Source: Candidatus Thalassarchaeaceae archaeon (GTDB lineage Archaea > Thermoplasmatota > Poseidoniia > Poseidoniales > Thalassarchaeaceae). Taken from it: a stretch of DNA of 64,000 bases. Shown piece by piece: positions 3,112 to 7,580 of the stretch. The stretch covers positions 62,001-126,000 of the forward strand of contig JAPYUP010000002.1 in the NCBI GenBank assembly GCA_029940695.1. The letters are read 5' to 3'. The translations under genes and the position numbers were made by a program. The stretch's first letter is position 1, and the number at the start of each line of letters is the position of its first letter. The notes below the pieces were generated by a model. That model had not been told where the DNA came from and did not search any database. It was given only the letters and a program-made list of their open reading frames with translations.

Positions 3112-3912
3112 ATGGTGATGAGCTCTATTGAGATGAAAGTGGAAGAGTACGGATTGGAAACCAGTGGAGAAGTGCATAACAGCCCTGCTCCTTTGCTGAT
3201 GGCGCTGGCGATTACACTGTGCCTGGGTGGCCTGCTGATATGGCCGCTAGCGGTTCTGGGAGTGCCGCTCCTGGTGTTCTCGATTTTCACGTGGCTGAGG
3301 GAGGAGGTAGGACTCTGGGCCGGGCGACCGCCGAGGGACCCTGCTGAGTGGGGCGATGCCTCGTGGGCGATGGTCTGGATCATCGTCACCGAGTGCATCA
3401 TCTTCGCCTCCTTCTTCGCCTATTGGTTCTGGACACGTTGGCACACGGTTAGCTGGGACGGTGCTGTAGGGGGTACTTGGCCCGCGTCTGGGGTTGAACA
3501 TGACATAGCACTAGTTGGCTTCAACACCGTTCTGCTGCTGGCCTCAGGCGTACTGGCCCACCACTCGGCCAATAAACACGCCAAGGACGATCGTGCGGGT
3601 GCGACCAAAGTTCTCTACGGTGCCATCCTCCTAGGTGCCGCCTTTCTCGTCATACAGCTCTACGAGTACGCGAACGCCGGCTTCCTCTGGAGCGATCACC
3701 CCTATGGCACAGCATTCTTCTCGCTGACCGGACTACATGGACTCCACGTACTAATAGGCCTAGTCGCGTTATCTGTGATTGGCGCGCTAATGCACGGTGG
3801 GCACATGCCGTCTGAGAAGCACGACGGCTACCGTGCGGTGACGATGTACTGGCACTTCGTGGACGCTGTCTGGGTGTTGCTCTTCCTCATCGTCTACTTG
3901 GAGGTGATCTAA
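3112..3912 (+). CDS. coxC: Haem-copper oxidase subunit III
   Basis: A polytopic membrane subunit of the terminal oxidase, 266 residues with about seven predicted membrane segments. The helix carrying the conserved Glu reads TECIIFASFFAYWFW (Glu94). Further on are GLHGLHVLIGL and the C-terminal MYWHFVDAVWVLLFLIVYL, all typical of subunit III. An N-terminal two-helix segment (residues 27-62) precedes the usual core and may stand in for a small subunit IV. It is first in the coxIII-II-I operon; its stop is followed immediately by the GTG of subunit II. The start ATG at 3112 is followed by another at 3118. Confidence 0.93.
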   Translation: MVMSSIEMKVEEYGLETSGEVHNSPAPLLMALAITLCLGGLLIWPLAVLGVPLLVFSIFTWLREEVGLWAGRPPRDPAEWGDASWAMVWIIVTECIIFASFFAYWFWTRWHTVSWDGAVGGTWPASGVEHDIALVGFNTVLLLASGVLAHHSANKHAKDDRAGATKVLYGAILLGAAFLVIQLYEYANAGFLWSDHPYGTAFFSLTGLHGLHVLIGLVALSVIGALMHGGHMPSEKHDGYRAVTMYWHFVDAVWVLLFLIVYLEVI

Positions 3913-4653
3913 GTGGAGATGGGGAAGCGCACCTTCGGTGCAGTCGCTGGCAGCATCGCCATCCTGCTGCTCACCTTCGCGGCGATCTTCAACTGGTTCC
4001 AGGGACTTGGGGGGACTGGAGAACACGCCGCTGTATACGACGAGTTGTTTACCCTCTACTGGGGCTTGGGGACGGCAATCGGAGTGGCCGTATACATCTA
4101 CTTCCTGTGGCTGCTGACGACCTCCACCGACGAGGGGCTGGACGAGATGACCTGTGGGCAGGCTCCTGTCGACCGTGGCGATAGGAAGGTGGCATACGCA
4201 ATCACAGTGATCATCACACTGTTCCTGCTCGTGCTCTCAGATGTCACCTTCGACTCAATCGACTTCTTCGAGAAACCCGAGACGACCGACGAGTCATTCA
4301 CAATCCAAGTAACAGGCTACCAGTACTACTGGGACTACCAGTATCCCAATGGGATACACTACACGAGTGCGACGGGGGAGCCCCTGCGTATTCCCGTTGA
4401 CGTACCCGTGGTCTTCGAGGTCACCAGCGGAGACGTGTTCCACTCGTTCGCACTGCCCGAGCACCGCATCAAGATCGACGCTCTGCCGAGCCGGACCAAC
4501 ACGGGATGGATCCTGGCGGAGGAGGCTAGTACAGAGCCCTACCCAGTACGGTGCTTCGAGCTCTGCGGTGACAATCACGCAATCATGATGGGTGAGCTCT
4601 TGGTGATGGAGAAGGCTGACTTCGACGCTTGGTACGCAGGAGGTGATGCCTGA
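3913..4653 (+). CDS. coxB: Cytochrome c oxidase subunit II with CuA centre
   Basis: 246 residues with two N-terminal membrane helices (about 10-28 and 50-70, plus one at 94-112) followed by a cupredoxin domain on the outer face. All CuA ligands are visible: His177 in DVFHSFALP, then Cys214-x3-Cys218-x3-His222-x2-Met225 with the bridging Glu216. The aromatic electron-entry patch reads GYQYYWDYQY. It therefore takes electrons from a soluble or tethered donor such as a cytochrome c or blue copper protein, not from quinol. The GTG start touches the preceding TAA. An ATG two codons later is an alternative. The stop overlaps the start of subunit I. Confidence 0.95.
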   Translation: MEMGKRTFGAVAGSIAILLLTFAAIFNWFQGLGGTGEHAAVYDELFTLYWGLGTAIGVAVYIYFLWLLTTSTDEGLDEMTCGQAPVDRGDRKVAYAITVIITLFLLVLSDVTFDSIDFFEKPETTDESFTIQVTGYQYYWDYQYPNGIHYTSATGEPLRIPVDVPVVFEVTSGDVFHSFALPEHRIKIDALPSRTNTGWILAEEASTEPYPVRCFELCGDNHAIMMGELLVMEKADFDAWYAGGDA

Positions 4654-6827
4654 TGCCAGGTATCTTCAAGAGGTCTCGCGCAATCGGCGTATTGCTCGCA
4701 ATCTCCTTGCTCATGGCCGTAGTACCCTCTCTGAATGCCCTGCCAGGGGGGATTTCATCAGTGCATGTTCAGAATGGCTGCAATTGCCACAGTCCAACGT
4801 CTGACAATGGAGTGGTGCTCTCACTGGGGGGCCTGCCCGAATCCTTCGTCGGTGGAGAGGCGTATACCCTCGAAATTTCCTTCATCGGTGGGCCCGATGC
4901 ATCGGGGGAGAACCAAGGGGGGTTCAACCTCCGAGTGAACGGAGGAATATTGATCGCACTCGATTCGACGGTTCAAATCTGGGAAGGTTCTGCAACTCAC
5001 TCTGAAGTAGGAAACGACCAACGCGCTTGGCAGGTTCAGTGGGTGGCACCCGAATCCGACACGATTCGGGCGTCCTTCACGCTGCTCGGAAACTCAGTCG
5101 ACGGTGATGGCACACCTGACTCGGACGACAGGTGGAACGTTCTCGAGTACGAGGTCGCCGGTCAGAACACTGGTTCTGACTCATTCATCGACATAGACGA
5201 GCCGGCATGGCTAATCATCGTTGGCGCACTGGTCGCAATCGTCCTAATCATCGTAGTCGTGCTGTGGAAGATGGAGAGTTTCGGCAAGACCGAGCTCGTC
5301 CACTGGCTGACCACCACCAACCACAAGGACATCGGCTTGCTCTACCTATGGGCCTCGATTATCTTCGGAGTGATAGGAATGGCCCTCTCAGTCCTGATTC
5401 GCCTGCAGATGGTCGTCCCGGATAACGACTTCATGACCGGTGGGCTGTTCAACGAAGCGGTCACGATGCACGGTGCCGTCATGGTACTGTTCACGGTCTC
5501 CCCCATGGCCTTCGCCTTTGCGAACTACATCGTACCGCTGCAGATTGGCGCACGCGACATGGCTTTCCCCAGATTGAACGCCCTCTCGTTCTGGTCCTTC
5601 GTTCTGGGTGGACTGGTCGCGGCATCCGGGTTCTTCTTCGGCGGTGCCGCCGACGTGGGATGGACGTTCTACTCCCCACTGACGAGCATCGAGTACACCC
5701 CCGGTGCGGGGGTGTCTCTGGCTGGTGCGGGGTTGGTCCTGTTGATTCTCTCGGTAACCTGCTCGACGATCAACTTCCTAGTTACGATACTAAGGCACCG
5801 CATCCCCAGTATGGGAATGATGCAGATGCCGATGTACACGTGGACGATGCTGTTCACGGTGTCGCTGATGCTGGTCATCTTCCCGGCGCTACTCGGTGCA
5901 GTACTGATGCTGGTTGGGGACCGGGTGTTCGGGACCCTGTTCTTCGATCCCAGCATAGACGGCACCACCTGGTGGCTGCACATCTTCTGGTTCTTCGGAC
6001 ACCCCGAGGTGTACGTCGTACTGCTGCCGGGTCTAGGCATGGCCATGGAGGTCGTACCGACCTTCGTGCGGCGGCATCTGTACGGTAGGCGGATTATCAT
6101 CTGGGCCTTGGTGGCCTCCGTGGTGCTCAGCGTACTCGTGTGGGGGCACCACATGTTCGTCACAGGCATCAACCCCACCTTCCGGAAGATCGAGACCATA
6201 GGAACAGAGCTCATCTCGGTGCCGTTTGGTCTCGTCTACCTCTGTCTGCTAGGGACCTTCCACAAATCAAAGCCCGACTTCACCAAGCTACCCCTGGCAT
6301 TCGTCATGGGGGCGATTGGCATCTTCCTCATCGGAGGCATCACTGGGGTCTACCTGTCTAGCGTGGCGATGGACGTGCAACTCAGAGGCACCTACTACAT
6401 CGTGGCCCACTTTCACTACACTCTGGGCTCAGTTGCGGTGATGACTCTAGGTGGAATCTACTACTGGTACCCCAAGATGTTCGGCAGGATGCTCGACAGG
6501 ACTATGGGTTGGTGGCACTTCTGGATGACCTTCTTGGGGATGAACCTGACCTTCATCCCGCTGTTCGGGCTGTGGGACATGCCGCGCCGGATTTACGTCT
6601 ACCAAGATAGCGCGGGGTGGGCGACTCAAAATTTGCTCTCTACTGTGGGCTCGCTCGTGGTATTCGTGGCCCAGTTAATCTTCTTCTGGAACTTCATACG
6701 GAGCATGAAGAACGGTGAGCACGCTGGAGACGACCCCTGGGGGGCGAGCACCCTCGAATGGTCGACCTCCTCGCCTCCCCCCAAACACAACTTCGACGAG
6801 TTGCCAGAATTGACTTCCGGAAGCTGA
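4653..6827 (+). CDS. coxA: Cytochrome c oxidase subunit I with N-terminal CxCH domain
   Basis: 724 residues, about 200 more than a normal subunit I. Residues 1-30 form a signal peptide. Residues 31-170 form a choice-of-anchor V/Reeler-like beta domain with an NGCNCH motif (Cys43, Cys45, His46), and residues 185-206 form a membrane helix. The oxidase core starts near TTNHKDIG (222-228). Haem and CuB ligands are all present: His273 in MHGAVMV, HPEVY (His450, Glu452, Tyr454 for the His-Tyr crosslink), GHH (499-500), and HFHY (His586, His588). The Glu in HPEVY indicates an A1-type D-channel. The N-terminal domain is closely similar to the stand-alone protein at 6930. The CxCH might bind haem c or a metal; this is not established. 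Confidence 0.95.
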   Translation: MPGIFKRSRAIGVLLAISLLMAVVPSLNALPGGISSVHVQNGCNCHSPTSDNGVVLSLGGLPESFVGGEAYTLEISFIGGPDASGENQGGFNLRVNGGILIALDSTVQIWEGSATHSEVGNDQRAWQVQWVAPESDTIRASFTLLGNSVDGDGTPDSDDRWNVLEYEVAGQNTGSDSFIDIDEPAWLIIVGALVAIVLIIVVVLWKMESFGKTELVHWLTTTNHKDIGLLYLWASIIFGVIGMALSVLIRLQMVVPDNDFMTGGLFNEAVTMHGAVMVLFTVSPMAFAFANYIVPLQIGARDMAFPRLNALSFWSFVLGGLVAASGFFFGGAADVGWTFYSPLTSIEYTPGAGVSLAGAGLVLLILSVTCSTINFLVTILRHRIPSMGMMQMPMYTWTMLFTVSLMLVIFPALLGAVLMLVGDRVFGTLFFDPSIDGTTWWLHIFWFFGHPEVYVVLLPGLGMAMEVVPTFVRRHLYGRRIIIWALVASVVLSVLVWGHHMFVTGINPTFRKIETIGTELISVPFGLVYLCLLGTFHKSKPDFTKLPLAFVMGAIGIFLIGGITGVYLSSVAMDVQLRGTYYIVAHFHYTLGSVAVMTLGGIYYWYPKMFGRMLDRTMGWWHFWMTFLGMNLTFIPLFGLWDMPRRIYVYQDSAGWATQNLLSTVGSLVVFVAQLIFFWNFIRSMKNGEHAGDDPWGASTLEWSTSSPPPKHNFDELPELTSGS

Positions 6828-6929: not shown

Positions 6930-7580
6930 ATGAGAGGAAAGGGAAAAGCGATGGCGTGGAAGCGCGTTGCGATAGCGTTCCTGATTGTTTCCTTACTCTC
7001 GATTCCGTTGGCGAACGCGATTCCGGGCGGCATCAACGGCCCCATGGTGGAGAACGGTTGCATTTGTCATGGTGGGGGTGTGGTAAGCGGGGATGTGCAG
7101 ATCGAAATAGGGGGGCTTCCCGTTGAATGGGAGCTTGGTGAGAAGTACGAGATTCTGATCTCTGTGGTAAGCCAGGTACCTGAATCCGGTAGTGCTTTCG
7201 GGGGCTTCAACCTCGTTGCAGACGGCGGAACTCTAGTCGAAACAGATGAGACCGTGCAGATTCGAAATGGTGAAGCCACCCATACTGAGATTGGCAATAT
7301 GCAAAGGGAGTGGGTTGTCTCTTGGATAGCACCCGACTCTCCGTCAAGAAATGTTGAATTCCGCGTCTATGCTAACACCGTCAACGGCGATGGTGAGGCG
7401 GGCACTGAGGACCAATGGTCCACTAAGAGCGTCAGCATAGAGGGTCCCGAAGGGAAGCCCATCTACCTGACTGAGCCGGGCAAGGCCCGTTCCCTGTTGG
7501 TTGGGCTAGCAATTGCGGCGATAATTGTCAACATCCTGCCCGATACTGGAGGTAAATTGGATGAGAAGGCCGAGGAATGA
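6930..7580 (+). CDS. Exported CxCH-domain protein, paralogue of the coxI N-terminus
   Basis: 216 residues. A signal peptide (from about residue 8, MAWKRVAIAFLIVSLLSIP) ends near AIPGGI. The mature domain has NGCICHGG, GGLPVEWELGEKYEI, FGGFNLVADGG and VNGDG. Each matches the domain fused to oxidase subunit I (PGGI, NGCNCH, GGLP, GGFNL, VDGDG). A C-terminal membrane helix (about 183-201) anchors it to the outer face. The family is choice-of-anchor V/Reeler-like, in which a CxxCH-type motif is usual; here it is CxCH. It may be a redox partner or assembly protein of the oxidase; that is inference from fusion and location. An alternative ATG is at 6951. Confidence 0.8.
   Translation: MRGKGKAMAWKRVAIAFLIVSLLSIPLANAIPGGINGPMVENGCICHGGGVVSGDVQIEIGGLPVEWELGEKYEILISVVSQVPESGSAFGGFNLVADGGTLVETDETVQIRNGEATHTEIGNMQREWVVSWIAPDSPSRNVEFRVYANTVNGDGEAGTEDQWSTKSVSIEGPEGKPIYLTEPGKARSLLVGLAIAAIIVNILPDTGGKLDEKAEE

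Follow-up and report, generated by a model that had tools for sequence, protein, structure and literature searches.

Relation to the closest described systems

In the caa3-type oxidase, a cytochrome c domain is carried on subunit II. A different arrangement was found in a stretch of 64,000 nucleotides (the window; contig JAPYUP010000002.1, positions 62,001 to 126,000) from the genome of a Candidatus Thalassarchaeaceae archaeon (GCA_029940695.1). Here coxA, the gene for subunit I of an aa3-type oxidase, begins with an exported domain that bears a Cys-x-Cys-His (CxCH) motif. As in the caa3-type oxidase, the domain is tethered at the outer face and could feed the CuA centre. However, it is a beta sandwich on the N-terminus of subunit I, and the locus does not encode a caa3 oxidase, as coxB (subunit II) ends after its CuA domain. 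The quinol oxidase subunits QoxB and CyoB also have an extra helix before the 12-helix core, and their profiles align with the fused protein from residues 188 and 181, respectively. In contrast to these, CuA is present here in subunit II and an exported domain stands ahead of the helix. Cytochromes f and c1 share with the CxCH proteins a signal peptide, a haem motif near the mature N-terminus, a C-terminal helix and a gene beside those for a Rieske protein and cytochrome b; cytochrome f is, in addition, a mainly beta domain. Nevertheless, the predicted fold here is that of Reeler domains, the motif is CxCH instead of CxxCH, and PF00034 is absent.

The domain family itself has been described as choice-of-anchor V or Reeler, and we know of no description of either family as haem c proteins or as oxidase components. 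The NCBIfam profile NF041895 (choice_anch_V) matched residues 24-163 with 71.9 bits over the full-length protein and 75.5 bits with residues 1-208, well above its curated cut-off of 42 bits. On the other hand, Pfam Reeler (PF02014, gathering threshold 21 bits) gave no match for the fused domain and a sub-threshold 15.9 bits for a freestanding copy. Residues 30-172 were modelled by AlphaFold2 with 57 sequences as a beta sandwich (predicted local distance difference test 90.2, predicted template modelling score 0.85), and the top Foldseek matches were F-spondin Reeler domains (E 2e-6, template modelling scores 0.52-0.58). These results agree with the initial annotation, which had called the domain Reeler- or choice-of-anchor V-like, except that the Pfam cut-off was missed. 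Neither cytochrome f nor cytochrome c1 was among the top 50 Foldseek structures; homology to cytochrome f, which had been proposed from the architecture, was rejected on this ground. Cytochrome c-553, the sole match of a PDB profile search (E 0.52), was treated as chance. In eukaryotes, Reeler domains are also combined with DOMON and cytochrome b561, so that the fold is no stranger to redox settings.

Poseidoniales (Marine Group II), which are uncultured, rank with the most abundant archaea in surface seawater. Cytochrome b and a Rieske protein are present in Marine Group II and canonical bc1 is absent (PMC6336850), and cytochromes c of PF00034 and PF01322 are absent from every Thermoplasmatota examined (PMC9287336). 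Because CuA-type oxidases are present even so, the electron route from complex III to the oxidase has been open. In the literature searched, the missing bc1 and cytochromes c were noted but never tied to this domain. We propose, with a probability of about 0.68, that the exported domain carries single electrons, most probably as a c-type cytochrome with a Reeler fold, and that electrons would enter CuA through it. It is somewhat more probable than an even chance that the domain founds a new class of c-type cytochromes, with a Reeler fold, a CxCH haem site and bis-His ligation, which would replace c1, serve as an anchored carrier and be built into subunit I.

The fused subunit I and its distribution

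In the window, coxC, coxB and coxA stand in this order, and the next gene encodes the domain in freestanding form, a paralogue 39% identical to the fused copy. The features are as follows.

4653..6827, + strand: fused coxA, 724 amino acids, consisting of signal peptide, CxCH Reeler-like domain, extra helix and aa3-type subunit I (uninterrupted open reading frame, PF00115, NF041895)
4640..4655, + strand: ribosome-binding site GGAGGTGAT and TGATG stop/start overlap, which couples coxB to the fused coxA (sequence reading)
4653..4739, + strand: signal peptide, residues 1-29, with KRSR n-region, hydrophobic core and LNA cleavage-like site (hydropathy; retained in the domain-less gene of genome G116)
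4740..5168, + strand: CxCH choice-of-anchor-V/Reeler-like domain, residues 30-172 (NF041895, AlphaFold2 model, Foldseek)
4779..4790, + strand: C43-N-C45-H46, putative site of covalent haem attachment, His46 being the candidate proximal ligand (invariance among aligned copies)
4998..5000, + strand: invariant His116, candidate distal axial ligand (invariance among aligned copies)
5193..5270, + strand: extra N-terminal membrane helix, about residues 181-206, ahead of the subunit I core (hydropathy)
5304..6824, + strand: subunit I core with haem/CuB ligand motifs MHGAVM, GHPEVY, GHH and HFH (PF00115, motif reading)
3913..4653, + strand: coxB, subunit II; CuA motif CFELCGDNHAIM present, cytochrome c fusion absent (PF00116, E 3.2e-15)
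3112..3912, + strand: coxC, subunit III (PF00510, E 1.6e-35)
6930..7580, + strand: freestanding domain paralogue, 216 amino acids, consisting of signal peptide, domain (C44-I-C46-H47 at 7059-7070) and C-terminal helix (NF041895, 75.5 bits)

By its COX1 profile match (PF00115, residues 226-669, E 1.5e-125, 420 bits) and its ligand motifs, the fused protein is an A-type haem-copper cytochrome c oxidase subunit I; its score for TIGR02891 (CtaD) was 563.5, under the equivalog cut-off of 670.75. The CuA site in the partner subunit II, CFELCGDNHAIM in coxB and CAEYCGDAHSVM in a second oxidase operon, marks a cytochrome or cupredoxin oxidase and not a quinol oxidase. The initial annotation had described an extension of about 220 residues, with a signal peptide and a membrane helix, that placed the domain on the outer face near CuA. 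The 724-residue frame, in which PF00115 matched only from residue 226, bore this out. Hydropathy showed two hydrophobic segments before the core, at residues 7-32 and 178-212. GCNCH (residues 42-46), found exactly where the motif had been placed, lies 13 residues past the LNA cleavage-like site. In this topology, the domain is on the outer face, on the side of CuA, and the extra helix would let the core begin inside.

The start codon at 4653 overlaps the stop of coxB and has GGAGGTGAT directly upstream. Between relatives, the ratio of nonsynonymous to synonymous substitution (dN/dS) was about 0.03-0.14 across the domain, which denotes purifying selection. A search of the order's genomes found the domain in all 146. 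When the subunit I core alone (about 507 amino acids) was used as query, 133 near-full-length matches were obtained in the order, and 130 of these had open frames of 700-826 amino acids. The extension, first thought to belong to one odd oxidase, is thus general among subunit I N-termini of Poseidoniales, far more often than coincidence would allow. The named relatives with the fusion are records of Marine Group II/Ca. Poseidoniales or of Thalassarchaeaceae, or else unresolved metagenome-assembled genomes of Euryarchaeota/Thermoplasmatota, one record being labelled Acidiferrobacter; the single-cell genomes AG-319-P11, AG-422-I20, AG-313-L18, AG-457-A01 and AH-287-M04 have it as well. The fusion is standard in the order and is also found in related lineages.

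Three subunit I genes were short (G011, G078 and G116). That of G011 is cut by a contig end. The G078 gene resembles mitochondrial cox1 and was treated as contamination; its locus (L302) is likely a contaminant contig in a public metagenome-assembled genome. In G116 (L304:2805-4547), a natural variant of the type A subunit I lacks the domain in frame in the assembly: the signal peptide joins the extra helix directly, and the freestanding CxCH gene remains downstream. In the domain tree, a separate 252-residue protein of G116 falls with the fused domains of type A, though on a long branch. This arrangement fits a modular role of the domain.

Outside the class, genome G185 (L293) encodes a fused domain and subunit I whose core is about 57% identical to the window type. 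This fusion is therefore either older than Poseidoniales or transferred.

Conservation of the CxCH site

Seven copies of the domain are encoded in the genome. Two are N-terminal on two subunit I paralogues, the window type and a 775-residue type (L101). One copy is freestanding, one is linked to complex III (L102:7332-8177), and one is on a 340-residue membrane protein; the other two are on an endonuclease-like protein and on an 894-residue immunoglobulin (Ig)-like repeat protein. An alignment of 34 divergent copies, spanning Cox1-fused, complex III-linked, freestanding, nuclease-linked and Ig-repeat-linked forms, had the invariant columns G42, C43, C45, H46, G90, F91, G98, H116, W126, W130, P133 and D159; one row (L175) is CxxCH, with one extra residue between the cysteines. 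C-x-C-H and the distal His were invariant in 84 of 84 copies from named genomes, a set gathered with the pattern GC.CH, so that the spacing there is partly due to selection. Among distinct fused domains gathered by a signature without the motif, the one-residue spacer and the distal His were kept in 85 of 85. The canonical CxxCH haem motif of c-type cytochromes is accordingly not present in the fused domain. His46 and His116, conserved in the aligned copies, are the candidate axial ligands.

The spacer at this site varies elsewhere. Among the order's long paralogues, it reads GCGGCH (L175, CxxCH) or GCGGGSCH and GCGAGVCH (L182 and L191, CX4CH), and these retain the distal His. In other Thermoplasmatota, the site reads CTACH, CTPCH, CNSCH, CSSCH or CAHCH, and further variants are CxxxCH and ATCH, the latter with a single Cys; the distal His is missing in some divergent outgroup forms. 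CxxCH, CxxxCH and CX4CH are known haem c spacings. Relatives with no motif came from genomes in which PF01578 was not found (G173, G285, G290, G344 and G346), and two motif-less matches came from PF01578-positive genomes (G167 and G177). A plasmid search for bacterial homologues found none, and a literature search returned no paper with CXCH plus haem, nor with choice-of-anchor V, as terms.

In one genome outside the window's own (G191, L300:5883-10787), a molybdopterin oxidoreductase-like gene is immediately preceded by three tandem CxCH-domain genes, which gives the domain a further redox setting.

The complex III operon

The complex III operon opens with the gene for a CxCH protein (L102:7332-8177) composed of a signal peptide, the domain and a C-terminal helix; this copy had no Pfam match. 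The next gene encodes a Rieske-type protein that bears the motifs CPHLCC and CICHSS and matched TIGR01416 below its cut-off (E 1e-8), and it is followed by a cytochrome b6 gene (PF00033, E 7e-41). The same order was observed in 8/8 relatives from both families, that is, in 9/9 loci with the window's genome. The CxCH gene stands where that of cytochrome c1 or f would be expected.

The last gene of the operon encodes a 942-residue protein (L102:10366-13194; G000:C42), whose N-terminal membrane part is at the expected place of the cytochrome b C-terminal subunit and whose C-terminal part contains 4Fe-4S and CCG (HdrD-like) domains. This unusual quinol-to-FeS architecture was found in the same position in L282-L289 and is conserved in both families.

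Haem-attachment genes and the inventory of cytochromes c

CcmF (PF01578 plus CcmF_C), CcmE with the archaeal CPSKY motif, CcmC (TIGR01191, 67 bits, below cut-off) and a CcmA-like ATPase whose C-terminal half is a membrane region are encoded in the genome. Within the genus, PF01578 was present in 27/28 genomes and CcmE in 21/28. In Methanosarcina, CcmABCEF are sufficient for cytochrome c (PMC9084895). PF00034 was found in 0/146 genomes of the order once one contaminant contig was removed; this single match (L301, G045) was on a contig of a public metagenome-assembled genome whose genes look alphaproteobacterial, and it was treated as contamination. The CxxCH pattern occurred at 123 DNA sites in the genome, versus 81 for the reversed control, and when each site was read there was no exported CxxCH cytochrome among them. 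Canonical cytochromes c were rejected as Ccm substrates, as the sites gave only a thioredoxin-like CGNCH, one ferredoxin-type protein, one membrane protein, one zinc-type protein encoded in the window, and noise from other frames.

A scan for longer spacings covered roughly half the genome (717 kb, overlaps included), and a single further exported candidate came to light. This is a conserved CxxxCH (CGGSCH) protein, encoded at L104:2658-3782 and L356:700-1827; its neighbours are the Ig-repeat CxCH gene and a gene for a membrane protein of four helices. Similar pairs were seen in Ccm clusters of other Thermoplasmatota (L298 and L345), with CxCH in G316 and G336.

Outside the class, strong domain matches (E < 1e-6) were obtained in 20 genomes, and PF01578 was present in 20/20 of these and in about 19/177 of the remaining genomes. 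The Fisher test for this co-occurrence gave P 6e-17, a value uncorrected for phylogeny and based on tables compiled by hand. A domain gene was located within 6 kb of a Ccm gene in 9/19 genomes, compared with 0.87 expected within 12.5 kb, an expectation that assumes uniform gene placement. Four genomes serve as examples, the gene names being assigned by sequence reading. CcmF-CcmC-CcmE are followed by CLDCH and CSTCH proteins in G177; CcmF, E, C, B and A occur with CSTDCH and CDDCH proteins and with a multihaem cytochrome in G342; and a CNSCH or CAHCH protein is encoded directly ahead of a Ccm fragment in G204 and G178. In Poseidoniales, the Ig-repeat CxCH gene is about 10-15 kb from CcmF in twelve listed genomes.

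Proposed electron route

The sequences themselves show the fusion and its topology, the invariant residues, paralogues in both complex III and complex IV, and a set of Ccm genes in a genome where no canonical cytochrome c was detected. From these patterns we infer the haem, its covalent bonds, its axial ligands and the route of the electrons. The Ccm system would attach haem to the two cysteines, Cys43 and Cys45; its axial ligands would probably be His46 and His116, and the extra helix would tether the domain to the outer face of subunit I. The domain may then receive electrons from complex III and deliver them to the CuA centre in subunit II. As donor we propose the product of the first gene in the complex III operon, a CxCH subunit, acting directly or via halocyanin or the freestanding CxCH protein. 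A haem is favoured because CxxCH, CxxxCH and CX4CH occur at the same site and because the domain is linked to Ccm genes. Electron entry, metal loading and assembly had all been suggested as roles in the initial annotation. Electron entry is now clearly favoured, because a CxCH domain heads the complex III operon, where there is no copper to load, and because homologues cluster with haem c attachment genes and not with copper chaperones; metal loading and assembly gained no positive support.

If this is true, a CxCH Reeler-type cytochrome in both complexes would answer how electrons reach the oxidase. Moreover, the accepted haem c attachment motif would extend to one-residue spacing, cytochromes overlooked by CxxCH scans would be revealed, and a function would be given to a domain family whose present annotation goes no further than that of a variable-anchor surface domain.

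Alternative explanations

Several observations weigh against a haem-bearing electron carrier. To our knowledge, the one-residue CxCH spacing is unprecedented for haem c and is not an accepted motif. The structural match is to Reeler domains and not to a known cytochrome, and the exported CxxxCH protein (L104:2658-3782) is another candidate Ccm substrate in the genome. At altered spacing, the Ccm system of E. coli yields aberrant persulfide linkages (PMC3601427). The statistics of the Ccm association, with their lack of phylogenetic correction and their assumption of uniform placement, are a further caution. In G116, one subunit I does without the domain. Finally, the domain also occurs on the endonuclease-like and the long Ig-repeat proteins, which suggests a general surface module. 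The endonuclease-I-like fusion (L005/L105, G000:C38) has no obvious call for a redox cofactor.

In an alternative view, the domain would serve generically for surface display or anchoring, its cysteines would form a structural disulfide or a zinc knuckle, and its role on the respiratory complexes would be architectural, in assembly, in contact between complexes III and IV or in contact with the surface layer. The NCBIfam family is indeed named for variable anchors, the Reeler domain is an extracellular fold, and the domain-less G116 subunit and the nuclease-like and Ig-repeat proteins are in keeping with such a module. However, a disulfide needs neither the fixed distal His nor His46, and spacers of 1, 2, 3 and 4 residues with C-CH kept are typical of haem c and not of a disulfide. 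The Ccm linkage and the distribution over complexes III and IV would also be left unexplained. We consider this explanation unlikely.

Slightly less probable still is that the C-x-C-H motif and His116 bind copper or another metal, the domain being a copper electron carrier or a loader of CuA/CuB in assembly. Cys/His sites are able to bind copper, the domain faces the CuA side, and Foldseek gave a weak match to the copper protein YcnI at rank 36. Blue copper proteins, including halocyanin, are highly transcribed in Thalassarchaeaceae (PMC9723583). Against copper, the domain is also encoded first in the complex III operon, where there is no copper centre, and both the CxxCH, CxxxCH and CX4CH replacements at the same site and the linkage to Ccm genes point toward haem.

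That the N-terminus is an annotation artefact, with translation starting near residue 208 or a sequencing error joining two genes, is extremely improbable: although subunit I usually begins just ahead of the NHKDIG region and a Met codon is present at residue 207, the ribosome-binding site with its TGATG coupling at 4653, the purifying selection on the domain, the 130 fused genes among 133 sampled and the independent single-cell assemblies all argue for a genuine fusion. A downstream start and a frameshift were the two sources of error raised in the initial annotation; no frameshift was found, and the start at 4653 is well supported.

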